NCBI GenBank assembly: GCA_029858305.1
Contig: JAOUFI010000019.1
Coordinates: 1 to 36,057, forward strand
Length of the DNA: 36,057 nt
From: Candidatus Thorarchaeota archaeon
GTDB lineage: Archaea; Asgardarchaeota; Thorarchaeia; Thorarchaeales; Thorarchaeaceae
Direction: 5' to 3'
In this document: positions 994 through 36,057 of the stretch, piece after piece
How positions within the stretch are numbered: the first letter of the stretch is position 1
How the letters are laid out: each line of letters starts with the position of its first letter
Translations under genes and position numbers: made by a program
Notes under the pieces: generated by a model
What the model saw: the letters and a program-made list of their open reading frames with translations, nothing else
Database searches by the model: none
Told to the model about the DNA's origin: nothing

Positions 994-1251
994 ATGGTGA
1001 AAGCCGTGACAGAAATGAAACCAGATGAAAGTCTGGATTGTGTGGGATTGTTTTGTCCTCAACCACTTTTCCAGACAAAACAAGCCATTGAAAGCATTGA
1101 ACCAGGTCAAATTCTTGAGATACTTGCAGATGATCCTGCGGCGGAGGAAGACATCAAAAGATTCTGCAAGAGAACAGGTCATGAATTCGTCAGTGCCAAA
1201 AATCTTCCAGACGGAGTTAAGAGAATCTTAGTGCGACGGAAGAAAGATTAA
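994..1251 (+). CDS. tusA: TusA/SirA-family sulfur carrier protein
   Basis: An 85-residue protein with the TusA fold pattern. The sulfur-accepting motif Cys-Pro-x-Pro sits at residues 21-24 (CPQP), after a short strand ending in D-x-x-G-L-F. The body follows the family order of helix, strand (ILEILADDPAAEEDIKRF) and C-terminal strand. TusA proteins accept persulfide sulfur from cysteine desulfurases and pass it to tRNA thiolation, molybdenum cofactor or other pathways. It is the first gene of a rightward run, 41 bases before the IscS-like gene. That partner lacks its PLP lysine, so the real sulfur donor is uncertain. A second ATG at 1015 would also keep the whole domain; the first is used because the TATA-like box fits it. 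Confidence 0.88.
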   Translation: MVKAVTEMKPDESLDCVGLFCPQPLFQTKQAIESIEPGQILEILADDPAAEEDIKRFCKRTGHEFVSAKNLPDGVKRILVRRKKD

Positions 1252-1292
1252 TCACGGACAGGTCAGAAATAACGGTTTAAGGTTGGGATCAT

Positions 1293-2456
1293 ATGAAACA
1301 GGTCTATCTTGATTACCAGAGCGCAAAACCAGTTGATCCCAGAGTCGTGGAGGGCATGAAACCATACTTCAGTGAAAAGTATGGAAATCCATCAGCTTTA
1401 CACTCAATTGGGGATGAAGGAACAGAGGCTCTTGAAGAGAGTAGAAAGACAATTGCTCGGTTCATAAATGCTGATGAAGATGAGATCATCTTCACTTCAG
1501 GAGCAACCGAAGCAATCAATTTAGGAATAATCGGATATGCCCTGAAAAATCAAAAGAAAGGTAACCACATAATCATCTCCGAGATTGAGCATATTTCAAT
1601 ACACAATATCGCAAAACATCTTGAGCGCTCTGGTTTCGAGATATCAAAAGTCCCGGTAGACCAATTCGGCCGTGTGAATCTGAGAAAACTTGAGCAGAGG
1701 ATTACGGACAAGACTATTCTAATCTCTGTAGGCTATGCAAGTAATGAGATAGGGACAATTCAACCTATCCGTGAGATTGGTAAACTGGCAGAAGAGAAAG
1801 GAGTTGCATTTCACTCAGATGCAGTAGCTGCAGAAGGTTTGCTGCCAATTGATGTCAAACGAGATGGCATTCACCTTATGGCACTTTCATCAAACGACAT
1901 CTATGGTCCAAAAGGAGTCGGTGTTCTCTATATGCGAAAGAAGTTCCGAGTCAACCCTCTCATTATTGGTGGAGGACAGGAACAGGGTTTAAGGTCAGGG
2001 AGTGAAGATGTCCCTGGTATAGTGGGTATGAGCCTAGCTGCTGAGTTAATGCAGAAGGAGATGCCAAAAGAGGTGAAACGATTCACTTCGTATCGCGATA
2101 GGATGATCAGACAAATTCTCGAGGAAATTCCTGATAGTCATCTCAATGGTCATCCAACAGAGCGACTTGCAAGTAATACGCATGTAAGATTCGATGGAAT
2201 TGAAGGAGAATCAATCCTCTTGTCTTTCAAAGATAGAGGCATAGCAATCTCAACGGGCTCAGCATGCACATCAAAGACTCTAGAGCCATCACACACATTG
2301 ATTGCAACCGGTCTCCTTCATGAGGAGGCGCATGGCTCTTTGCAAATCACAACTGGAAGATTCAATACAGATCAAGACATAGATAGCGTCCTTGAGTTCG
2401 TGCCAGAAATAGTGACACGACTTCGAGAGCTATCTCCAATTTACAAATCGAATTAG
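1293..2456 (+). CDS. IscS/NifS-like cysteine desulfurase homologue with Asp in place of the PLP lysine
   Basis: A 387-residue fold-type I aminotransferase-class protein of full IscS length. The cofactor-stacking histidine is kept (E-I-E-H100), and the mobile-loop cysteine is present in STGSACTSK (C325). At the Schiff-base position the usual S-A-H-K-I-Y-G-P-K-G reads S-S-N-D-I-Y-G-P-K-G, so lysine is replaced by D202 (codon GAC at 1896-1898). The usual pyridine-ring glutamine region reads HSDAVAAEG, with Ala for Gln. The same Asp substitution is known in Archaeoglobus fulgidus IscS, reported to lack desulfurase activity while its cysteine can still ligate the cluster on IscU. Here too it sits 12 bases before an IscU gene. 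I infer a scaffold or cluster-assembly partner rather than a normal desulfurase. Confidence 0.93.
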   Translation: MKQVYLDYQSAKPVDPRVVEGMKPYFSEKYGNPSALHSIGDEGTEALEESRKTIARFINADEDEIIFTSGATEAINLGIIGYALKNQKKGNHIIISEIEHISIHNIAKHLERSGFEISKVPVDQFGRVNLRKLEQRITDKTILISVGYASNEIGTIQPIREIGKLAEEKGVAFHSDAVAAEGLLPIDVKRDGIHLMALSSNDIYGPKGVGVLYMRKKFRVNPLIIGGGQEQGLRSGSEDVPGIVGMSLAAELMQKEMPKEVKRFTSYRDRMIRQILEEIPDSHLNGHPTERLASNTHVRFDGIEGESILLSFKDRGIAISTGSACTSKTLEPSHTLIATGLLHEEAHGSLQITTGRFNTDQDIDSVLEFVPEIVTRLRELSPIYKSN

Positions 2457-2468
2457 GAGATGAAATAA

Positions 2469-3248
2469 ATGAAATCAACAAAATACAGCGAAAAGGTTCT
2501 GGATCACTTCAGAAATCCTCGAAACGTCGGTACTCTTGAGGGAAACGATGTTGCTGTCGGAAAAGTAGGCAATCCCACATGTGGGGATATCATGGAGGTA
2601 TTCATCCGTATCGATGGAGATAAAATTACAGACGCAAAGTTCAGGACTTTTGGCTGTGGCTCAGCCATCGCAACAACAAGTATGACGACTGAGATGGTCA
2701 AGGGGATGACCTTGGATGAGGCAATGAAGCTGACTCGTCAGGATGTTGCTGAGGAACTAGATGGCCTACCGCCAATCAAAATGCACTGCTCAAACCTCGC
2801 AGCTGATGCTCTTCATGAGGCAATCAAGAGCTATAGAAAAGGTAGAGGAGAGGAAGTGGCAGATGATAAGGAAAAGGTGGAGGAAGAAGTTGAGTGTCTC
2901 GTTGGAAAAGATGAGTTCCTCGATAAAGGCGTCTACACAGGCGTTGATAATCTGCAGGATTTTGAAAATCGTAGAACTTTGATTCTTTATACAGGTGACA
3001 AGTCAGTCGAGAAGGCAATCGAGCTAACAGAGGTTACCGGACGTGTAATCCTTCTCACACCTGATGAGTCTCTTGTTCTTAGTCCAGAGCTAGCTGAGAA
3101 ACTTGCAGCCTCTACTGTAAAAGTACTATATGAGTCAAGACTCCTTGAGATACGCGGAGAGGTCGAGGTAGAGAAAGCGCTCATTCGAAATCTAGATGAA
3201 GATGAGGACTACGAACTCTTCGTTGACGCGGTTGTCATTATCGATTAG
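2469..3248 (+). CDS. iscU: IscU Fe-S scaffold fused to a degenerate thioredoxin-reductase-like NAD domain
   Basis: Residues 1-125 are a complete IscU/NifU N-terminal scaffold: C38 in GNPTCGD, D40, C63 in FGCGSA, and H106-C107 in KMHCSNLA. A charged linker (about 125-142) follows. Residues 144-259 can be aligned by eye with the NAD(P)-binding domain of thioredoxin reductase, from the E-F-L-x-K-G-V entry strand through R-V-I-L-L-T to the final L-x-V-D-x-V-x-I strand. The redox CxxC of that domain (SYCATCD in true reductases) is replaced by VYTGVD, and the Gly-rich loop is reduced to Y-T-G-D-K-S-V. The tail therefore looks non-catalytic. Ordinary IscU is about 125-155 residues, so the fusion doubles its size. 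It is the third gene of the tusA-iscS run. The alignment was done without software. Confidence 0.88.
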   Translation: MKSTKYSEKVLDHFRNPRNVGTLEGNDVAVGKVGNPTCGDIMEVFIRIDGDKITDAKFRTFGCGSAIATTSMTTEMVKGMTLDEAMKLTRQDVAEELDGLPPIKMHCSNLAADALHEAIKSYRKGRGEEVADDKEKVEEEVECLVGKDEFLDKGVYTGVDNLQDFENRRTLILYTGDKSVEKAIELTEVTGRVILLTPDESLVLSPELAEKLAASTVKVLYESRLLEIRGEVEVEKALIRNLDEDEDYELFVDAVVIID

Positions 3249-17219: not shown

Positions 17220-17297
17220 TTACGATTGGAGTCATGCCCTGTCTAAGAACTCCTGCTTTTAGGCAGGATTGAATGACGAAAAGCTTTGTAAGTAACC
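17220..17297 (-). repeat. Displaced, decayed copy A of the nrdD 3' end (26 codons)
   Basis: Read on the minus strand this translates as GYLQSFSSFNPA, stop, KQEFLDRA, stop, then LQS and a final TAA. The end of nrdD is GYLQALSSYNPAKKQEFLDR followed by HRYSL. The match starts at the glycyl-radical glycine codon, and both stretches are exactly 26 codons including the stop. The internal AAG has become TAA, so it cannot encode the tail. It lies between the C11 peptidase and the luciferase-like gene. Confidence 0.85.
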
Positions 17298-17321: not shown

Positions 17322-17372
17322 GAGTGAACATGATATTACAAAGTTTCTCAACTCGTTCGCTTGTGTACTGCG

Positions 17373-18185
17373 ATGAAATATGGAGTCTATATCTCTAACT
17401 ACGCACTTCAAGGAGATCCCAATAAATTCCTTGAATTGGCAGTTGCTGCTGAAGATGCAAAGTGGGATGGGTTCTTTATGTGGGACCACAATTATGCAGG
17501 AAAGGATGAATTGATTGCAGACCCATGGATCACACTTGCAGGCATAGCAGCACGCACTGAAAAGATTAGAATCGGCACAACAGTGACACCTCTACCAAGA
17601 CGACGCCCACAGGATGTAGCAAGGGAGGTCGCTACACTAGATATTCTTTCTAAGGGTAGGTTCATTCTAGGAGTTGGATTAGGGGGTTCTTCTGACAATG
17701 ATTATGGAAGTTTCGGAGAAGATACTGACCTCAAAGTAAGGGCTGAGAAACTAGACGAGTCATTAGCTATTCTTGAGGGTCTTTGGTCTGGTAAACCATT
17801 TTCATTCTCTGGAAAGCACTACAATATTCATGAGGTCACATTCAATCCTCGCCCGATTCAGCGACCACGCGTGCCAATATGGTGTGCAGGTACTTGGCCA
17901 ATAAAAGCTCCATTCAGAAGAGCGGCAAGATACGATGGTGTGTTTCCATTATCGATGAGCGAAGACATGTCTCTGGAGGAATATTCCGAGGTAGTAAACT
18001 ATGTCAAAAAGCATCGAGGATCCATGAAGGATTTTGATGTGGTAATTATGGGGACAACTACTGGGGATGAAAAGGTCTCGTGGATTGGTGAATCCGAGGC
18101 TCTTGGTATGACTTGGTATGTTGAAGTCATGATGGGAGATGATTTTAACAAGTTCTATGAAAGAGTTGTAAAAGGGCCTCCTTGA
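17373..18185 (+). CDS. Luciferase-like (LLM class, probably F420-dependent) oxidoreductase
   Basis: A 270-residue TIM-barrel protein of the bacterial-luciferase superfamily. It opens with M-K-Y-G-V-Y-I-S-N-Y and has the family landmarks W-D-G-F-F-M-W-D-H-N, T-E-K-I-R-I-G-T-T-V-T-P-L-P-R-R-R-P, and L-S-K-G-R-F-I-L-G-V-G-L-G near residue 95-105. Archaeal members usually use F420. The ATG at 17373 is used rather than a TTG at 17361. It is slightly short of common 290-340-residue members, with the barrel ending early. It lies between copies A and B of the nrdD tail, which points to it having arrived as cargo. The substrate is unknown. Confidence 0.88.
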   Translation: MKYGVYISNYALQGDPNKFLELAVAAEDAKWDGFFMWDHNYAGKDELIADPWITLAGIAARTEKIRIGTTVTPLPRRRPQDVAREVATLDILSKGRFILGVGLGGSSDNDYGSFGEDTDLKVRAEKLDESLAILEGLWSGKPFSFSGKHYNIHEVTFNPRPIQRPRVPIWCAGTWPIKAPFRRAARYDGVFPLSMSEDMSLEEYSEVVNYVKKHRGSMKDFDVVIMGTTTGDEKVSWIGESEALGMTWYVEVMMGDDFNKFYERVVKGPP

Positions 18186-18192
18186 AAAAATC

Positions 18193-18270
18193 CTACAGTG
18201 AATACCTGTGTCTATCTAGGAACTCCTGCTTCTTCGCAGGGTTGTTTGAAGATAGGTCTTGCAAATACAC
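18193..18270 (-). repeat. Displaced copy B of the nrdD 3' end (26 codons, peptide intact)
   Basis: On the minus strand this reads VYLQDLSSN followed by NPAKKQEFLDRHRYSL and a TAG. The last 16 residues equal the nrdD C-terminus exactly, while many codons differ at the third base (for example CTA for CTT, GAT for GAC, CTG for TTA). The glycyl-radical Gly codon is GTG (Val) here. It starts eight bases after the stop of the luciferase-like gene. There is no nrdD body attached. Confidence 0.9.
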
Positions 18271-18350: not shown

Positions 18351-19694
18351 ATGATGTGGAGAATACGATATTGTTCTGCCATATTTGTTTGTTTCACACT
18401 CATTCTGGTTTCTACTCATTCAATCGCAACCGAGACCACGAATGCAGAGCCAAGTTTCGGACCCAATTCAATACCAAACATCTACACCCAAAGTAGTGTA
18501 AATGAAACAGCAGCATATGGACCGCCCTTTGTAGTATTCGTTAATTGGGGTTGGACAGGCAATCTCACATACACATATTGGGATCTAAACGGGGATAAGG
18601 GCATTCCTAATGCTAATGTCACATGTCTATCCTTCGTATGTGATGGGATTTATGACCTAGGAAACGGTTCTTATTTGGTCAAAGTAAACACTACCTATTC
18701 CTGGGCTCCGGAGTATCTGTATCTAATTGTTGCCTTCGATAAAACAGGATTTGAGAATCAAGTTGTTGTGACTGAAATGCATTTGTATCCCGCACCCACA
18801 AATCTTGTTGTTGTTATACCAGAAGAGAACCAGATTGATAACTACCCTCTTTGGCTTATGATCCCCCTCGGTGATGCAATAGACATTCAATTTTTCTATA
18901 ACGACACAGATGACTCTGATGGTCATGTGGGAGGACTAGCTGGCGCATCCGCTAGTGCAACCATCGTTGGTCCCACGCTTACTGAGCAATATGTACAACT
19001 CACAGACCAAGAGAATGGGTATTATAATCTGACATTTGATACAACATCTGAATGGCTGTATGAATCTGTAGGATGTACGCCTAGGTCAAATTGGTTGCCT
19101 TATTATATTCACATTCAGCTCGCTCTTGAGAACAGAGTTCCATGGGATCGTACAATCGAAATCACCATCATAGATATACCAACAGAAATCCAAATAACTC
19201 CTCATTATGAACCATTATATCCATTACATCTTATCCCGAGTGGCAACTTCATATTCGTCTCTTTGGTGGATATCTGGCCTTCTCATGAAGAGGCGCTCGT
19301 TCGGGATGTAAGCATTTCAGTAGAAACTTATAACTCATCATTCATAGAGGTTCGTTCAATCACCGAAGATCCTGAAAATCCAGGAGTCTATGAAATCGTA
19401 TTGTTCAATAATGTTCCAGCTTCAGTACAAGCGACCATTCCCAATGGTGGATGTATACCAAACGAAATCACGTATGCATCAATAGTATTCTCAATCTTTG
19501 TCGAGAAAGAAGGGTATGCAAGTCAGGAAATCACAATTGCGGCAGATCTTATAGCGGTCGGTGGGGGGGGCTGGGGACCTCAGCCACTGGCGGGTGTTCC
19601 AATATTAATTGTAATTGCAGTTATAGTTGGAGCTCACTATTTCCGGAAACAACGACAGCTGCATTCTACAGTAGCATCAACTGAAATTGATTAA
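18351..19694 (+). CDS. Secreted membrane-anchored beta-sandwich protein, unknown function
   Basis: A 447-residue surface protein. A signal peptide spans about residues 7-27 (YCSAIFVCFTLILVSTHSIA). The long middle is beta-rich with many N-x-S/T sites, and contains at least two segments of Ig/transthyretin style (D-L-N-G-D-K-G-I-P-N-A-N-V followed by G-N-G-S-Y-L-V-K-V; and G-Y-Y-N-L-T-F-D-T). A Gly/Pro hinge (GGGGWGPQPLAG) leads to a C-terminal membrane helix (VPILIVIAVIVGAHYF) and a basic tail. ATG at 18351 has AAGGTGG nine bases before it. It lies between nrdD-tail copies B and C and points toward nrdD. Possible receptor or adhesin; no enzyme motif seen. Confidence 0.8.
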   Translation: MMWRIRYCSAIFVCFTLILVSTHSIATETTNAEPSFGPNSIPNIYTQSSVNETAAYGPPFVVFVNWGWTGNLTYTYWDLNGDKGIPNANVTCLSFVCDGIYDLGNGSYLVKVNTTYSWAPEYLYLIVAFDKTGFENQVVVTEMHLYPAPTNLVVVIPEENQIDNYPLWLMIPLGDAIDIQFFYNDTDDSDGHVGGLAGASASATIVGPTLTEQYVQLTDQENGYYNLTFDTTSEWLYESVGCTPRSNWLPYYIHIQLALENRVPWDRTIEITIIDIPTEIQITPHYEPLYPLHLIPSGNFIFVSLVDIWPSHEEALVRDVSISVETYNSSFIEVRSITEDPENPGVYEIVLFNNVPASVQATIPNGGCIPNEITYASIVFSIFVEKEGYASQEITIAADLIAVGGGGWGPQPLAGVPILIVIAVIVGAHYFRKQRQLHSTVASTEID

Positions 19695-19708: not shown

Positions 19709-19786
19709 TCATAACGAATATCGGTGCCTGTCAAGGAACTCCTGCTTCTTTGCAGGATTATATGACGAGAGCGCTTGCAAATAGCC
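19709..19786 (-). repeat. Copy C: live nrdD 3' end, source member of the three-copy tail repeat
   Basis: These last 26 codons of nrdD, from the glycyl-radical Gly to the stop, match copies A and B. All three contain a short inverted repeat, TCCTGC-N6-GCAGGA in A and C and with one mismatched outer base in B, around codons 10-16. The arms are kept while the six-base centre varies. Confidence 0.88.
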
Positions 19787-21850
19787 TGTTATTCTGCTGA
19801 ACACCTCGACTCCCACAAATCCGCACTTCGGACAGGGGATTTTTGAGAGGTCATCAATAGACGCAAACCTTGCACTCCGCCAATCAATACCACTCTGATA
19901 GTTGCAGTTCGGGCACTGTAAAACATCCTTTGTGAAGCTCCAATATGAGTTCAGAGTCTCTGTAGCAATCTTCTTTGTCAGCTCCCAAAGCGCATCAGGA
20001 TCTGGATTTGATTCACCAAGGTAGACATGAGTGAGAGCACCTCCATCCATGTACGGATGGAACATCCCTTCCTTCTTGATCCGTTGTGTCAGAGGAAGTT
20101 TCGCACCTACGTAGAGGGTCGTGCTGTTGGTATAGTAGACATTGGAACCATCACCCTTGAGATATTTCCTGATTCCAGGATACGCCTTGTAGTCCTTCAC
20201 CGCAAGACGACCTGCTGCGCTCTCAGCTGGAGTACGAGTGACACCAAAGTGGAGACCGGTCTCTTTCTGGAACTCTGCGGCTTTCGCTTTCAGGTGCTTG
20301 AGGACTTTGATTCCGAAACGTGTTCCCTCTGGTTCATGTAGATGGTGGCCAGTTATAACTTCAGCCATCTCGTCAAAACCAACCGTGCCCAACAGGAACT
20401 CACGTCGATTCATATCGATGAGAGGCTCACCATTTGGCTTGGGCTGTGTATAGAAAGGAACACTCCCGCTAGCAATCAGCTTGTCCATCAGCCGCTTCTT
20501 CTCAAGGATGACTTGTTTTGATAGTTCGACGTACTCGTCTATCTTCTCAAAGAAATGTTCCTCATCAGCTCTGCCTAGCCACGCGGCACGACCGAAGTTT
20601 GGTGTGACCATCTGCGAGGCTCCAAAGACCATATTTCCACTCAGGAACTCATCAAGTTCCTCATCACTACTCGCAGTCCAGAGATGTGAACAACAACTAC
20701 TGCAACCAGCCTCTATCTTTGATCGCCAGTTCAAGTAGTTCTCGAAATAGGGAGAACCATGTTTTACAGTGAGCTCAGCGACAAGCCGCCATGACTCATC
20801 ATACTCAGGTCCCATGAACTCTTTCCGAAGCACGATGTTGGGCTTTGGAAAACCGAAGCCCTTGCCCTTCGCATCACCCTTAATCATGACTTCCATGAAG
20901 GCATTGAAGAACAACCGCGCTTCTTCCTCATAGTCGCCATATGTGACCTCGGAAACCTTACCGCCAGGAAGTATTGCTGGAATATTACGCATAATCTTAG
21001 GAATACCGGGAGTAAGGTCAACACTACTGAATATCACCTGACCACCGCGCGCTACATACTGTTGGGTCAAAGTGAAGATCAACTGCTGCGCAGCTTGTTT
21101 GATCTTATTGTATGGCAGCCCTTTCATGAAGGGAGCTAAGAATGTATTGAAGTAGAAATATCCCTGACCGCCTGCAAAGGAGCTCTGAGCAGCAGCCAGC
21201 CAGATAGCGGCATGGTTTACTGCAACAGAGAGGTGTTGTGCAGGACCTGCGGCACTTGAGTGCATGCCACCAAGCCCATCAGGTGCAATACCTAGCGTAA
21301 GGACCTGTCGCATATCCCATGTGGCACAATAATCACGCGTTGAAAAATACTCTCTATCTTTGATGTAGATATCGCCTTTCAAATGAGCATCTGCTAGATG
21401 AGATGGTATTGAGAGGTAGGTATGTTGTTCCATCACCTGGTCGTGAACAAGTTTTGCAATCGTCTCAGGATTTCGCATGAGATTCGCATTGGATGTATGA
21501 GCACCGGGGTTATTAATGAGCAGACCGAGGTCGTACATAGGAATTCCAACACGAGTATAGAGGATACGTTCTTTCTCAAATCCCAGCTCAGCAAGGACAC
21601 TGTTGCACATCTCTCGAATTAGAGGACCGGATAGGAATTTGATACCAGAGGCAACAAGTCTATCCATGACCTTGACTGCCACAAGATGAGCATCAGCATG
21701 CGCGAGGTTAGCTTCCAATACAAGACTTTCAATGATTTTACTAGCATCGAAGGTCTCCATAGTACTGCTGGTGGTTCTGACCTTTGGCATCTTTTTCTCT
21801 CTGATGCGAAGGTCATCTGCATCTGAAATAGTGCTTCGAATGTCAGTCAC
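19709..21850 (-). CDS. nrdD: Anaerobic (class III) ribonucleoside-triphosphate reductase
   Basis: A 713-residue glycyl-radical enzyme that makes deoxyribonucleotides without oxygen. Residues about 20-105 form an ATP-cone regulatory domain (V-R-T-T-S-S-T-M-E-T-F-D-A-S-K-I). The catalytic barrel follows, with R-D-Y-C near 172 and the E-A-G-C-S-S-C-C region. A zinc site uses C646, C649, C673 and C676 (two CPxC pairs). The glycyl-radical residue is G689 in R-I-T-G-Y-L, 25 residues from the end. GTG at 21850 is used as start because it overlaps the stop of the upstream redoxin gene (GTGA). The activase NrdG is not in the window. The last 26 codons are duplicated twice downstream. Confidence 0.95.
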   Translation of the reverse strand: MTDIRSTISDADDLRIREKKMPKVRTTSSTMETFDASKIIESLVLEANLAHADAHLVAVKVMDRLVASGIKFLSGPLIREMCNSVLAELGFEKERILYTRVGIPMYDLGLLINNPGAHTSNANLMRNPETIAKLVHDQVMEQHTYLSIPSHLADAHLKGDIYIKDREYFSTRDYCATWDMRQVLTLGIAPDGLGGMHSSAAGPAQHLSVAVNHAAIWLAAAQSSFAGGQGYFYFNTFLAPFMKGLPYNKIKQAAQQLIFTLTQQYVARGGQVIFSSVDLTPGIPKIMRNIPAILPGGKVSEVTYGDYEEEARLFFNAFMEVMIKGDAKGKGFGFPKPNIVLRKEFMGPEYDESWRLVAELTVKHGSPYFENYLNWRSKIEAGCSSCCSHLWTASSDEELDEFLSGNMVFGASQMVTPNFGRAAWLGRADEEHFFEKIDEYVELSKQVILEKKRLMDKLIASGSVPFYTQPKPNGEPLIDMNRREFLLGTVGFDEMAEVITGHHLHEPEGTRFGIKVLKHLKAKAAEFQKETGLHFGVTRTPAESAAGRLAVKDYKAYPGIRKYLKGDGSNVYYTNSTTLYVGAKLPLTQRIKKEGMFHPYMDGGALTHVYLGESNPDPDALWELTKKIATETLNSYWSFTKDVLQCPNCNYQSGIDWRSARFASIDDLSKIPCPKCGFVGVEVFSRITGYLQALSSYNPAKKQEFLDRHRYSL

Positions 21851-28995: not shown

Positions 28996-29700
28996 CTATC
29001 GCTCAATAGTGAAGTCATGCCACTCCCGAGATGTTTCCGTCCCACGCATACGTTCCATACGTACTTGATGTTTAGGAATAGGTTCGATATCATTGATTCT
29101 AAAACGAAGTACTGCATCAGCAAGATAAGAAAATGTGGCATAGGTTTTTTCATCATGTACACCTTCTTCAAGCACATACATGATACTATGAGAGCTCTGT
29201 GTGATTCTTCCACTAAGTCGTTGAATTGCCTTTGGCATTGTTGCAGGATTTGAATGGAGAATCAAGGTGGAAAGACTATCAATGACGACACGAGCAACAA
29301 CTACATTTTCTAGAACCTCTGAGAGGACTATTCCTAGCTCGCTGATGTCATCAACTTTGGCAAGAGACCTTGCAGATCCTGTTTTTGGTGCGCCCATTCT
29401 CTCCGAGTAGCCATCTATGAATACAAACTGACCTGCTGCTTCTTGTGCCTCAGTTGCCCAGCCATGACGACTCATATCATTGCGAATGACTCTGGGAGAT
29501 ACATCGGTCGTGACAAATATAGCAGGAAATCCCTGATCAATACCCTCCGCAAGAAAAGCCTCTGCGTACGTAGTCTTACCTGCTCCTAGAGGGCCAACAA
29601 GCATGTAAGATACCTGAGTCAACTGTCCAAACTTAACAAGATCACTAATCATTGGATGTGCACGTGCAGGTTTTTGTGTTGAACTCTCTGAGCTATTCAA
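28996..29700 (-). CDS. KaiC/RAD55-like single-domain ATPase (second of pair)
   Basis: A 234-residue RecA-fold protein. Walker A is G36-P-L-G-A-G-K-T43 and Walker B is V-V-I-D-S-L-S. The F-V-T-T-D-V-S-P strand after Walker A replaces the E-E-S found in true KaiC, so the catalytic glutamates of KaiC are not clearly kept. The N-terminal 30 residues are unlike KaiC. It starts 20 bases after the other KaiC-like gene ends. TTG at 29700 is used with TGTGGC upstream; an ATG at 29652 would also keep Walker A. It may act as a partner of the upstream KaiC-like protein. Confidence 0.82.
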   Translation of the reverse strand: MNSSESSTQKPARAHPMISDLVKFGQLTQVSYMLVGPLGAGKTTYAEAFLAEGIDQGFPAIFVTTDVSPRVIRNDMSRHGWATEAQEAAGQFVFIDGYSERMGAPKTGSARSLAKVDDISELGIVLSEVLENVVVARVVIDSLSTLILHSNPATMPKAIQRLSGRITQSSHSIMYVLEEGVHDEKTYATFSYLADAVLRFRINDIEPIPKHQVRMERMRGTETSREWHDFTIER

Positions 29701-29719
29701 TTTGCCACATCCCAGTCAG

Positions 29720-30466
29720 CTAGCTTCCTGGACTTATTTCGCCAGGCCAGACTCTTATACCTTCGTCTGTAATTCGCATTGAGTGTATCCTCGAGCTGTG
29801 CTTTGATCCTCTGAGCTTTAAGACCTCAATTGAACGAGAACGTGATGTGTCTGAAATCTTTTCGTTATAGAGAACAATGACTCCTGAGGCTAGAAAAGCT
29901 TCGATATCGAACACACCTAAGCCTGTTTCTTGTGCTGGAATCTCACTTGTAATCAAAAGGGTGCAGCCTGTTCGTGTGATGTTTGCTGCAAGTCTAAAGA
30001 ACTCCTCCCGGAGGATATCTCGACTTCTAAACTTATAGGCCATGATTGAGAGGGTATCAAGCACGACACGAGTAGCATTGATTTTCTTGATATGATTCAT
30101 AATTATTGCCTGTAGACCAGATAGATCGAAACTGGGGTATTCCCCTATCGTGGCAGGTGTCGCCTCCTTTGAAGGAGAAAGATCAACGATGGAAATCTTG
30201 CCCTCCTTTTCGAGCTTTTCAAGATCCATCCCAAACCTTAGCATGTTTCTCTTTATCAGGATGGGAGATTCTTCTAGAGTCACAAACACTCCTGGTTCAT
30301 TATACTCTGTGACCCCCTTGTAGATGAACTGAGTTGCAAGGATGCTTTTGCCAGTACCAGCTTTCCCTGCGATGAGAATTGTATCGCCCTTTGGAAAACC
30401 GCCCTCAATCAACTCATCAAGGCCTGGAATACCAGTCTTTACTCGTTCTATTGTATAATCACTCAT
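29720..30466 (-). CDS. KaiC-family ATPase, single RecA domain
   Basis: A 248-residue protein with the complete single-domain KaiC pattern. It opens V-K-T-G-I-P-G-L-D-E-L-I-E-G-G-F-P, Walker A is G-K-A-G-T-G-K-S at 34-41, the V-T-L-E-E-S pair supplies the catalytic glutamates, Walker B is V-V-L-D-T-L-S, and L-K-L-R-G-S-K-H-S is the conserved late strand. Archaeal KaiC-like proteins are ATP-driven signalling oligomers. Its ATG shares one base with the stop of the upstream redoxin gene (TGATG), so the two are made together. Confidence 0.92.
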   Translation of the reverse strand: MSDYTIERVKTGIPGLDELIEGGFPKGDTILIAGKAGTGKSILATQFIYKGVTEYNEPGVFVTLEESPILIKRNMLRFGMDLEKLEKEGKISIVDLSPSKEATPATIGEYPSFDLSGLQAIIMNHIKKINATRVVLDTLSIMAYKFRSRDILREEFFRLAANITRTGCTLLITSEIPAQETGLGVFDIEAFLASGVIVLYNEKISDTSRSRSIEVLKLRGSKHSSRIHSMRITDEGIRVWPGEISPGS

Positions 30467-30744
30467 CAGGATTCACCCTTCTTCTTGGTCATGACCTTGG
30501 CCCCGAGTACCATCTTCATCAACATCTCTGGCTCCGGGATTCCAGTGATAGAGACTCCGCCAATCATAACTGTGGGTAGGGCAAATATACCATACTCCTC
30601 AGCAGCCTCTGGATTCTCACTTACATTGATTATTACAAGCTTGAATGTATCAAGCCCAAAGTCATTAATCGTTTCTCGAATCACTTCTTCAGCCCTTGGA
30701 CAAAACGCGCATGAATCAGATTTGAAGAACACAACCTCAATCAT
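30466..30744 (-). CDS. Thioredoxin-like redoxin coupled to a KaiC-family gene
   Basis: A 92-residue redoxin from the ATG at 30744. V-V-F-F-K-S-D-S-C12-A-F-C15 places CxxC at the helix start, and F-A-L-P-T-V-M-I-G-G is the cis-proline strand. A longer GTG start at 30795 would add 17 acidic residues, but the ribosome-like bases overlap that codon, while GGATGATT stands well placed before 30744. It overlaps the KaiC-like gene by one base. It resembles the nrdD-linked redoxin. It may feed redox state to the KaiC module, which is inference. Confidence 0.82.
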   Translation of the reverse strand: MIEVVFFKSDSCAFCPRAEEVIRETINDFGLDTFKLVIINVSENPEAAEEYGIFALPTVMIGGVSITGIPEPEMLMKMVLGAKVMTKKKGES

Positions 30745-30886
30745 ATTGGAATCATCCGCCTCTGACTCGGTTGGTTCAGTCTTCAAATCGCGCACTCCTA
30801 GGATGAAGAAACGGTACCATCAAGTAACGTGGAAATCACTTGAATGTTTTGAGAGCGTGTAATACGCATTTGAAAAAGCCATTTCT

Positions 30887-31270
30887 TCACTTATAGCCCA
30901 TAAGGATACGAATTCTTGTAGTAGCTTTTCCGATTGCTCGGGCATGGTAACGGATATTCTTCGGCACCAGAGCTCCGATAATCAATGTCTCATCGCCTCG
31001 TGCTCCTACACGTTTGAATACGGCTTTTCCATCTTGGCAGCGAAGACTGATATCCCTAATTTCACCTAGCATCAGTTCTTTCCGCACACGCTCAGCAACA
31101 TCAGCAATCATTCCACACATAGCTGCAACGATATCTTGATTGGTCTTAGGAGATGTGGCGGATGAGACTAGCAGACCATTTCCTCTTGCAAGAACAGAAG
31201 CTGAATAATTGCCTTCTTTATTCATGGTCTCTAGAATCTTTGGAAGTTCGCGATAATCTGGCCGTTCCAT
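30887..31270 (-). CDS. Roadblock/LC7-domain protein
   Basis: A 127-residue single-domain protein. The pattern I-L-E-T-M-N-K-E-G-N-Y-S-A-S-V-L-A-R-G-N-G-L-L-V, a central helix (I-V-A-A-M-C-G-M-I-A-D-V-A-E-R-V) and a final T-R-I-R-I-L strand match the roadblock/LC7 fold. These proteins dimerise and regulate small GTPases, as MglB does for MglA and Ragulator does for Rag. It heads the leftward KaiC run, and a small GTPase starts 135 bases away on the other strand. Pairing of the two is a reasonable guess from position. Confidence 0.9.
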   Translation of the reverse strand: MERPDYRELPKILETMNKEGNYSASVLARGNGLLVSSATSPKTNQDIVAAMCGMIADVAERVRKELMLGEIRDISLRCQDGKAVFKRVGARGDETLIIGALVPKNIRYHARAIGKATTRIRILMGYK

Positions 31271-31405
31271 ATGGACACACCATCTATCCTTGGAGTACTT
31301 GTCGCATTGTGTGTTTGCCTATTAAATAGTTTGAGACTATCTATATTTCCACAGTAGAGATTTAAATGTCCATGAACCCTCTTCTTGAATGTGGAGTTGA
31401 GCTGT

Positions 31406-31954
31406 ATGTCTACAGATTACCGTTTCAAAATTGTCATGTTAGGAGACGGTGCAGTAGGCAAGACAGCCATGACTGCTAGGTTCACCCAAGACTATTTTGA
31501 AGCAGACTACAAGAGAACCATTGGCACTGATTTCTCTGTCAAGCGAATGAACATTCCTGAAATTGAGGCTCACGTCACGCTGCAAATATGGGATCTCGCA
31601 GGTCAACCCAGGTTTGAGTTTGTGCGACAAGGATTCTATAGAGGCTCTAGAGGAGGTCTCCTATTATACGACGTGACCAGACGAAGAACCTTCATCAACG
31701 CGGAAGCTTGGAAGGATGAGGCCTTCAAGAATCTGAAGGGTGAGATACCTCTTGTTTTGGTAGCTAACAAGGTGGATCTCACTGACAGTAGAGCTGTAAC
31801 AACCGAAGAAGGCGAGGAATTCGCCAAAAAGAATGGATTCCTGTACGTCGAGTCGAGTGCTCTCACAGGTGAAAATGTAGAACAAGCCTACATTGAGTTA
31901 TGTAAAATCATGATTGAAGAGGGAAAAACGAAATCTAGTGGACCAATAATATAG
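31406..31954 (+). CDS. Ras/Rab-superfamily small GTPase
   Basis: A 182-residue GTPase with all five G motifs: G13-D-G-A-V-G-K-T20, T38 in T-I-G-T-D-F, W62-D-L-A-G-Q67, N121-K-V-D124 and S-S-A-L at 150-153. The Rab-like Q67 for hydrolysis is present. No C-terminal cysteine exists for prenylation; the tail ends G-P-I-I. The ATG at 31406 is used rather than the TTG at 31385, with GGAG upstream. TTTAAA near 31363 is a possible TATA box. It is divergent from the roadblock gene and convergent with the WD40 gene, eight bases apart. Confidence 0.95.
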   Translation: MSTDYRFKIVMLGDGAVGKTAMTARFTQDYFEADYKRTIGTDFSVKRMNIPEIEAHVTLQIWDLAGQPRFEFVRQGFYRGSRGGLLLYDVTRRRTFINAEAWKDEAFKNLKGEIPLVLVANKVDLTDSRAVTTEEGEEFAKKNGFLYVESSALTGENVEQAYIELCKIMIEEGKTKSSGPII

Positions 31955-31961
31955 CCACAGT

Positions 31962-33170
31962 TCATTGGCGCGTGTTTCCTTTTAACAGTCCCAGAGCTCG
32001 CTTGCATTGCCAGACAACATAGAACATACGTTTTGTCTGTAGTGTTTCCTCATCATATTGTGCATAGAGTGCTTCGTATTTCTGAATGAACTCATCTCTG
32101 CGATTCGGATCGTTTGTTGATTCTATCTCCTTCAATAATAACTGAAATGGCTCAAGCATTTCATTCATATCCTCTACTTCCCACCGAATGATGGCTCCAG
32201 TGCCATCAGCAGTAAGGAAAGCATTACGAGATGGATACCATTCTATCCCATCAATCTCGCCCATTGTGGATGCTTCACCCTGAACTGTCTGGGTAGCAAC
32301 ATCCCAAAGATAGATTGTCCTATCACCAGACCCTGATGCGAGATAGCGCCCATCACTACTGAACCCCAATGAACGAACTTCGCTCTCATGACGTTGAAGT
32401 GTTTGTTCTAATTTCATTGGTTTGAATGTTGCATTCCATAATAGCATTGTCAAATCCGACGAACCAGACACAAGGCGGGATCCATCAGGATTGAAGCGCA
32501 CCTCTCTGACCGCAGCCCTATGGTCATCATGACGAGCAATCATCGCCCCAGTTTCTGCATTCCATTCGCAGATGTTTGCATCTACAGAGCCAGATACGAT
32601 ACGACTACCTTGCGGATCCCAATCAACTGTGACAACATAGAATCCATGACCCTTCATCTGACGAATCAATGAGCGATTTTCAACATCCCAGATAATGAGA
32701 GTTGTATCCCCACTTCCTGATACAAGCTTATTCCCATCAGGGGAGAACGAGAGAGACAATACAGGGTATGTATGTCCTTCTAGTATCCCAATACATTCGC
32801 CTGAACGTATATCCCAGAGCTTCACTAATCTCTCAACTGTTCCAGAGGCAACAATATCGCCTCTCGGACTGAACGCAAGAGAGGTGCTGAGAAAATCATC
32901 CTGCATCCGTTGCATCTCTGTGCAGTCATCAGCTGCATAAAGTCGAATACTTCGGTCTTGAAGAGCTGCTGCAAACATACGACCTACACGATTCATTGCA
33001 AAACGACGTGTTATCTCAGAGCCATGTTCTGCCTGTGGCTTGAGGATTGTAGGCTTCAAAAAGATGCTTAGCTCGTCATGCTCCATTGACATCACGCGCG
33101 GCGTAATCAAAGGCCCGTAAATATGTTGTGAAAGAGAATCTGAGGAATATTCAAGATAGTAGATTATCAT
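31962..33170 (-). CDS. WD40 beta-propeller protein
   Basis: About 402 residues. Six clear WD40 blades run from about 65 to 325, each with the strand pattern F-S-P-D/R-G then L-V/A-S-G-S and ending in W-D/N/E (K-L-W-D-I, I-I-W-D-V, C-E-W-N-A, L-L-W-N-A, Y-L-W-D-V, I-R-W-E-V), with a less regular first blade making about seven. The last 80 residues are helical (F-Q-L-L-L-K-E-I, Y-E-A-L-Y-A-Q-Y-D). The ATG at 33170 has AGGTAG just before it; a TTG at 33185 and internal ATGs are possible. It is an interaction scaffold next to small GTPases. No membrane segment. Confidence 0.9.
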   Translation of the reverse strand: MIIYYLEYSSDSLSQHIYGPLITPRVMSMEHDELSIFLKPTILKPQAEHGSEITRRFAMNRVGRMFAAALQDRSIRLYAADDCTEMQRMQDDFLSTSLAFSPRGDIVASGTVERLVKLWDIRSGECIGILEGHTYPVLSLSFSPDGNKLVSGSGDTTLIIWDVENRSLIRQMKGHGFYVVTVDWDPQGSRIVSGSVDANICEWNAETGAMIARHDDHRAAVREVRFNPDGSRLVSGSSDLTMLLWNATFKPMKLEQTLQRHESEVRSLGFSSDGRYLASGSGDRTIYLWDVATQTVQGEASTMGEIDGIEWYPSRNAFLTADGTGAIIRWEVEDMNEMLEPFQLLLKEIESTNDPNRRDEFIQKYEALYAQYDEETLQTKRMFYVVWQCKRALGLLKGNTRQ

Positions 33171-33221
33171 GTCTACCTGTTTCAAAATTATATTTCAATA
33201 ATGATTTGCTAGGAAAATTGA

Positions 33222-35574: not shown

Positions 35575-36057
35575 CTATGTGAGTCCGCCTGCTTCAAGGA
35601 TTTTGATTGCTAACTCTAGGAAAGCAGCCTCAACATTTATTCCTGTCTTTGCACTTGTTTCAAGAAATGATGTAATGACACCTTGATTCGCAATCTTTTC
35701 TGCGAGTTTCTGTCCTTCCTCAGTGGTCACAATGGTCTGAGCCATCACAGGATTGTCTTTGAATTGATCCCTTAGGTCTATCTTATTGGCGATTAGAACA
35801 ATAGGTATCTTCTTACCAGCATTTGTCCAGCATTCATCCACCCAGTTCATGAGATTGTCAAAAGACCCACGTTCAACTGTAGAATAAACTGCTAGCGCAC
35901 CCTGTGCGCCTCTATAGAAAGTGGAACGTACACTCTTGAAGTGTTCCTGGCCTGCGAGATCCCAAATCTGAATGCTAACATCATGACCACCCTCAAGTTG
36001 CATCTTCTTGACAGCAAAATCAGCACCGATAGTGATCATGTAGTTGGCTCGGAAACC
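35575..36057 (-). CDS. Ras/Rab-superfamily small GTPase, N-terminus cut by the window edge
   Basis: 161 codons remain, open through the edge. The ATG at 36039 is not the start: six more codons upstream (G-F-R-A-N-Y) continue the switch-I segment into T-I-G-A-D-F. G3 is W-D-L-A-G-Q-E, G4 is N-K-I-D and G5 is E-T-S-A-K. The P-loop lies outside the window. The Q after G3 is kept. No C-terminal lipid cysteine (ends A-G-G-L-T). It is convergent with the HEAT/appendage gene, 11 bases apart. It is a close relative in pattern to the GTPase at 31406. Confidence 0.93.
   Translation of the reverse strand, partial: GFRANYMITIGADFAVKKMQLEGGHDVSIQIWDLAGQEHFKSVRSTFYRGAQGALAVYSTVERGSFDNLMNWVDECWTNAGKKIPIVLIANKIDLRDQFKDNPVMAQTIVTTEEGQKLAEKIANQGVITSFLETSAKTGINVEAAFLELAIKILEAGGLT

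Follow-up and report, generated by a model that had tools for sequence, protein, structure and literature searches.

We propose that the 3' end of nrdD, a gene for anaerobic ribonucleotide reductase, has served as a recombination site for serial gene insertion in a family of Thorarchaeota and that displaced copies of this end have built up an array, a reading that we favor with moderate confidence. The array appears in the window (the whole 36,057-nucleotide stretch of DNA analyzed here, which is contig C129 of G000, a metagenome-assembled genome, or MAG, of 88.9% completeness) and in many relatives; newcomers would bring fresh last codons for an essential-type gene of DNA synthesis and push the old copy away. 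The displaced tails are a readable record in which traces of past insertions are kept. They also raise the question of what recombines the nrdD tail sites when neither common class of site-specific recombinase was detected in G000.

Coordinates for the locus are listed in Table 1. We take the anchor gene to be nrdD from its glycyl-radical motif. Tails B and C lie 3' of the nrdD stop in the same orientation as nrdD, and the order is tail A, the 447-aa gene, tail B, the luciferase-like monooxygenase (LLM) gene, and tail C, with both genes on the strand opposite nrdD. A 48% homologue of the 447-aa gene adjoins a tail in another genome (G011, L069). Many compared loci have in common thioredoxin-like and thymidylate-synthase-like genes upstream and a far block ending in nifU-nifS-tusA. 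Array-free loci exist as well, either with nrdD about 1.7 kb from nifU (L135, L053) or with a short interval without tails (L072). The nrdD-nifU interval is otherwise compact, and the array fills it. Elsewhere in the window (28996-33185 and 35575-36057), two small GTPase-like genes, one Roadblock-like gene, two KaiC/RadA-like ATPase genes, and a gene for a WD40 protein, all named by eye, are clustered. A fourth partial tail of the same genome lies on contig C2 (L119:4187-4230), after a gene for a beta-helix (NosD-like) protein.

Table 1. Features of the nrdD locus in the window, with coordinates counted from its first nucleotide.
Feature	Position	Strand	Basis
nrdD, anaerobic ribonucleotide reductase, 713 aa, anchor gene	19709..21850	-	
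Tail A, live site, Gly codon to stop; core AATCCTGC at 19752-19759	19709..19786	-	
nrdD 3' part, codons ~641 to stop, apparently replaced	19709..19930	-	aa identity to relatives
Cassette 1 gene, 447 aa, likely secreted (by eye), no Pfam family	18351..19694	+	
Tail B, displaced, chimeric, Gly codon now GTG; core AACCCTGC at 18236-18243	18193..18270	-	
Cassette 2 gene, luciferase-like (LLM) monooxygenase, PF00296, likely ATG at 17373	17361..18185	+	
Tail C, older displaced, decayed, in-frame TAA, 3' part lost	17220..17297 (model match 17238-17296)	-	
tusA-nifS-nifU-like genes (named by eye), far anchor of the variable interval starting at the nrdD 3' end	994..3248	+	

The recombination site would span about 75 bp of the nrdD 3' end, starting at the Tyr codon that follows the radical Gly and ending with the stop. 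An incoming mobile unit, in most cases a single gene, would bring its own copy of the site; recombination near AATCCTGC would join the downstream half-site of the unit to the resident nrdD, so that a full C-terminus is rebuilt, and would leave beyond the new gene a chimeric tail composed of the unit's upstream half and the old host downstream half. Repeated rounds would build an array in which the newest unit adjoins nrdD. Protein selection would act on the nrdD-proximal tail alone, and the displaced tails would decay. Three parts of this scheme are inferred: that the unit exists in a free and probably circular form, that a site-specific recombinase works on the site in trans, and that the insertions took place in this order. 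Homologous recombination through the tails and nrdD probably also shifts units between lineages.

Protein searches recovered detached tails in genomes of the same genus, some of them on contigs other than that of the live gene. With R1, a 78-position DNA model built from 38 tails, matches (E<=0.01) were obtained in 34 of 47 family genomes, and 18 of the 47 had at least two, the live tail counted. The richest contig, from G009, has seven tails by R1 and eight by nhmmer, the weakest at 17.9 bits. Both orientations occurred together in none of the 45 loci with tails; in 10 of these, a live tail is accompanied by further copies, all in one orientation. A search of 158 genomes of the phylum, under stricter filters and with a model tuned to the family that decayed tails elsewhere may escape, gave a single match in each of 10 genomes from other families; we read these matches as probable live genes. 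Bit scores tend to drop with distance from the live tail (68, 29, and 20 in L071; 78, 71, and 26 in L065; 69, 66, and 48 in the window). L039 is an exception (58, 59, 51), and the G009 array, with no live nrdD in view, is irregular (76, 65, 57, 75, 64, 44, 18, 39).

Detached tails under 40 bits were excluded from all boundary, frame, and Pro-codon counts, which leaves 30. Among these, the Pro codon is CCT in 18 of the 19 with a readable motif, against 7 of the 11 readable among 27 live tails. This codon also stands out in synonymous conservation, albeit in few sequences. Constraint at the DNA level on the whole tail was considered and rejected, as 9-codon windows over the tail are not conserved above the gene average.

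Two tail placements are unusual. In G034, a single-contig genome, two well-kept tail halves (L118, C1:394000-408000) lie at least 1 Mb from nrdD and are unlike the host's own tail. The pair is outside the nrdD and nifU neighborhoods, about 20 kb on either side includes just two weak matches (35-36%) to neighborhood genes, and a matching empty site was not found in eight relatives; a secondary insertion site is possible. In G061, live-type nrdD ends occur on two contigs (L039 on C275, L128 on C223) with further tails after each, possibly because of two strains or mis-binning (7% contamination).

Between tails there is usually one gene or operon, in either direction. The genes found there encode LLM monooxygenase, a Zn-ribbon protein, EVE-like and TPR proteins, a ParA-like pair, a NERD nuclease, MoxR with VWA, beta-helix surface proteins, a hydrolase-like protein, and TPR proteins, some of the Pfam matches (for example, EVE in L062 and the hydrolase) falling below the curated cut-off. 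A metallophosphatase/SMC-like pair lies between tails in G013. In G018, the live tail is 16 kb from the next, and the interval harbors type I restriction-modification genes, a PD-(D/E)XK nuclease gene, and a TBP-like gene; these need not be one unit, because the glycosylase gene of the conserved neighborhood is also among them. By eye, genes for look-alike small membrane proteins (122-145 aa) repeatedly come first after an nrdD tail and point toward it (L065:1394-1807, L062:15588-16025, L073:37-465, L070:5087-5455).

Horizontal spread is shown for one unit, the LLM gene. It adjoins a tail in seven of eight close copies, six in genomes of the genus and one in G033 of another genus, a single case that could instead be mis-binning of a MAG; the eighth copy (G014), which contains a stop, has no tail beside it. 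Of the six tail-adjoining copies in the genus, one comes immediately after live nrdD (L071, G001), four have upstream flanks other than nrdD that are mutually non-homologous (the window, L067 in G015, L068 in G012, and L132 in G003), and one has its upstream flank cut by a contig end (L066, G006). Such varied flanks imply that the same joint was hit repeatedly. Silent divergence of the LLM gene is low, with pS of 0.25-0.43 in all 15 genus pairs, whereas the neighbor genes nifU, grx, cysmet, and glyc show pS of 0.59-0.95 (in the LLM genomes and two further genus genomes); for nrdD codons 1-640, dS is about 2 or saturated. Because its pS is far below that of its neighbors, the gene has moved horizontally, and its dN/dS of 0.11-0.35 shows that it is under selection. 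The spread of LLM was thus recent and horizontal, and its tail half travelled along.

The tails themselves are chimeric. The part from AATCCTGC to the stop tracks the downstream gene, and the 24 bp before AATCCTGC track the upstream gene. In nine pairs with a shared downstream gene (seven of them LLM), positions 36-78 agree at 32-40 of 43 (background 0.68) and positions 4-27 at only 8-14 of 24 (background 0.46). The pattern is reversed in the Zn-ribbon-end pair, which has the upstream gene in common (24/24 at positions 4-27, 10/43 at positions 36-78), and four LLM-end pairs agree at 14-20 of 24 and 17-26 of 43, respectively. These 9 + 5 pairs were hand-picked among the matches listed. Wider, unselected sets (21 right-homologous and 21 left-homologous pairs) point in the same direction more weakly, with some tails misaligned by one base, and in the left-homologous set, some of whose tails are decayed, agreement over the downstream arm is lower than background. 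Arm-wise agreement places the switch near AATCCTGC, at positions 28-35. A crossover at the Gly codon itself was rejected, as tails of the same cassette have discordant upstream arms. Target-site duplication of the 24-bp arm was likewise set aside: tails A and B agree at 18/24, yet in L065, L064, L071, L050, and L039 the live tail agrees with the first detached one at only 12-14 of 24.

Where present, the upstream arm begins right after the Gly codon, at the Tyr codon. Across 26 independent upstream contexts, T4 and A5 are each kept in 18 and the whole TAY in 14; each of the two G bases in the Gly codon is kept in 7, and conserved bases upstream of that codon in 5-9. In the subset of 21 of the 30 tails that start at position 5 or earlier (17 contexts), a choice that itself favors TAY, the counts are 16 each for T4, A5, and Y6, 14 for TAY, and 3 for GG. 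The remaining 9 of the 30 start later than position 5, so that the upstream arm is partly or wholly absent. Three fragments extend further upstream into nrdD (L073, from about codon 646, L063, and L012). The first of these is an 85-aa ORF in G009 (L073:460-1348), which contains the nrdD 3' fragment from near codon 646 and follows two unrelated genes, a layout that hints at insertions more distant from the nrdD stop as well.

The nrdD gene is also a mosaic at its 3' end. In the window, codons 301-600 are closest to G001 at 0.94 amino acid identity, and codons 641-687 reach just 0.70 to the same gene. The G005 gene behaves similarly relative to G012 (0.94, then 0.72 in codons 641-687). This region evolves faster in general, and other pairs drop too; G001, G010, and G012 agree there at 0.87-0.91. 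The conflict between codons 641-687 and codons 1-640 of the window gene is the clearest sign of import within nrdD itself, and the identities suggest that tail A came with a foreign nrdD 3' segment through homologous recombination. Near the mosaic break, three contigs (L046 in G008, L049 in G011, and L044 in G015) end inside nrdD at codons 610-653, which may reflect strain variation at the nrdD end.

The mosaic gives weight to the alternative that homologous recombination acts alone. The DNA of relatives would cross in the nrdD body and in any tail copy, and the tails would be short homologies for the exchange, gain, and loss of downstream genes. We regard this as a serious possibility, if a rather unlikely one. 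It accommodates the mosaic 3' ends in the window and G005, the lack of a detected recombinase in G000, the nine tails that start late, and intervals of any size and gene direction such as the 16-kb stretch of G018 that includes type I restriction genes; moreover, conservation along the tail is highest in the crossover zone (background identities of 0.73 and 0.68 vs 0.46). It leaves unexplained why unrelated upstream genes so often join the tail directly behind the Gly codon (of 26 contexts, 14 keep TAY and 7 keep each G) and why detached tails are biased toward CCT (18/19). The left edge and the CCT bias favor a site-specific reaction, and the mosaic nrdD, the tails without an upstream arm, and the lack of a recombinase favor a homologous one; we consider the former the likelier, though rather less than twice as likely as the latter. 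One uniform reaction is insufficient, because of the 9 of 30 tails with a partial or absent upstream arm, the upstream-reaching fragments of L073, L063, and L012, and the distant tails of G034.

The search for a recombinase and a free unit was negative within its scope. Neither a tyrosine recombinase (PF00589; present in 6 of 16 genus genomes) nor a serine recombinase (PF00239; present in 5 of 16) was detected in G000, and both families are absent from 6 of the 11 genus genomes with at least two tail matches. MAG incompleteness is unlikely to explain these absences in full. A Pfam scan of 40 proteins from array loci found no member of either family, and the short flanks (1.8-3.5 kb) of 21 recombinase loci contained no tail, the best match scoring 7.9 bits. 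In L125, an rve (DDE) fragment is separated from a weak tail by about 0.9 kb. Viral contigs, searched with two tail patterns and the LLM protein, yielded no relative of a free unit; three stretches fit one pattern, and none is related. The cassette model thus has several points against it: no recombinase or free unit was found, synonymous conservation is not raised when the whole tail is considered, nrdD is a mosaic, unselected pairs give a weaker chimera pattern, cassette genes face either way, and the genomes are MAGs.

A bolder form of the cassette model is possible and is put forward tentatively. It envisages an integron-like gene capture in which the coding end of nrdD is the attachment site, each insertion would rewrite the last residues of the enzyme, and only units that supply a working C-terminus would survive next to nrdD, with a recombinase of unknown kind or acting in trans; so far, it would concern one Thorarchaeota family.

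That the array is instead a canonical integron or CALIN, with attC cassettes moved by an IntI-type integrase, appears very improbable. A GTT core (G/TT) marks the crossover of attC sites and is missing from the crossover zone AATCCTGC. Folding of single strands gave no general attC-type signal: among eight folds of four tails (z from -0.27 to -2.60), six were not clearly better than shuffles (-0.27 to -1.11), and both of those below -2 came from tail B (-2.11 and -2.60). An attC site was accordingly rejected, and no PF00589 protein occurs in G000. The array does consist of mostly single-gene units with a common site, and Asgard MAGs are described as enriched in integrons and CALINs as lacking a neighboring IntI by definition (PMC9668308). 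Because CALINs lack it, the absence of PF00589 counts against a complete integron only.

Returning to serial insertion, tail B illustrates how a displaced copy reads. Its peptide is VYLQDLSSNNPAKKQEFLDRHRYSL followed by a stop, and the live NrdD C-terminus is GYLQALSSYNPAKKQEFLDRHRYSL, also followed by a stop. The preliminary description of this DNA had noticed that tail B keeps 16 NrdD residues despite silent changes and that its Gly-radical codon has become GTG (Val), and both observations hold: NPAKKQEFLDRHRYSL is the same in tails A and B, while 8 of its 16 codons and 10 of its 48 nucleotides differ, all silently. In a simulation of 200,000, the probability that the peptide stays intact after ten random substitutions was about 5e-6, so nearly all A-B divergence in this part arose while both tails were working C-termini, as the description had supposed when it placed the divergence inside a working nrdD and not in a drifting local duplicate.

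The downstream half of tail B has its nearest relative elsewhere. Over positions 28-78 (51 bp), B agrees best with the live tail of G001 (47/51) among 27 tails classed as live by upstream peptide, two of which are really fragments (L012_422 and L073_537). The next-best live tail reaches 42/51, and host tail A, sixth of the 27, reaches 39/51; a detached tail from G009 equals G001 at 47/51. The G001 live tail directly precedes an LLM gene, as does tail B. For the upstream 24 bp, the nearest is host tail A, at 18/24. The foreign origin that had been suggested for B consequently applies to the downstream half, which accompanies an LLM cassette of low silent divergence and does not cluster with host nrdD alone, and not to the upstream 24 bp. 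Nor did B arrive with a whole gene body and later lose it, since it is chimeric and its upstream 24 bp match the G001 tail at only 9/24. So tail B is a former live tail that was brought by a gene cassette and then displaced by tail A and its gene, in support of the suggestion that a newer tail had replaced it.

Simple duplication of the nrdD end in place, followed by drift, would explain why the repeats adjoin nrdD and why B's upstream arm is nearest to A's (18/24), but it is hardly credible against silent-only divergence (5e-6) and the presence of the same cassette in different settings elsewhere, and the greater closeness of B's downstream half to G001 than to A already refutes it. The tails are also unlikely to be conserved, translated short peptides: of the 30 detached tails that score above 40 bits, 3 are interrupted by a stop within the last 16 codons, in one case owing to a one-base frame shift in the analysis, and 9 have an in-frame ATG upstream. 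We give almost no credence to the idea that they are spare parts for oxygen-cleaved NrdD, as GrcA/YfiD is for pyruvate formate-lyase: the left edge does adjoin the glycyl-radical residue, at which oxygen cleaves such enzymes, but Gly is lost in B, C has a stop, an in-frame ATG is present in just 9 of 30, and, unlike in GrcA/YfiD, the radical Gly is generally not kept (each G in 7 of 26 contexts), so that the sequences probably do not encode a small protein of that kind.

Finally, the array can be compared with known systems. An nrdD with an attachment site and integrase, or anything alike, was not found in the open-access journal literature searched. The SCC elements of staphylococci insert serially at the 3' end of rlmH, with the gene end restored each time, and in both respects they resemble the units proposed here; unlike these, SCC elements are large and carry Ccr serine recombinases, and G000 has no PF00239 protein. 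Most integron cassettes carry genes that face one way, whereas gene direction is mixed here, the site is the coding 3' end of nrdD rather than attC, and no integrase was found. As in integrons and CALINs, including archaeal ones (PMC9668308), the array is made of small gene cassettes split by a common site, and the newest unit would adjoin the anchor. In Islander-type elements (PMC4383910), insertion rebuilds the 3' end of the target, the displaced fragment keeps the same orientation, and elements stack in tandem; the array shares these traits, and 10 loci here combine a live tail with further copies in one orientation. Acceptance of a tandem by Islander requires an integrase in every island, and tandems of three or more number 4 in the published table, next to 3919 islands (PMC4383910). 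In contrast, the target here is a protein gene, the units are mostly one gene with no integrase in those scanned, and one G009 contig carries seven or eight tails. Although defining features of each were looked for and not found, the nrdD array works like Islander-type integration and like an integron array.
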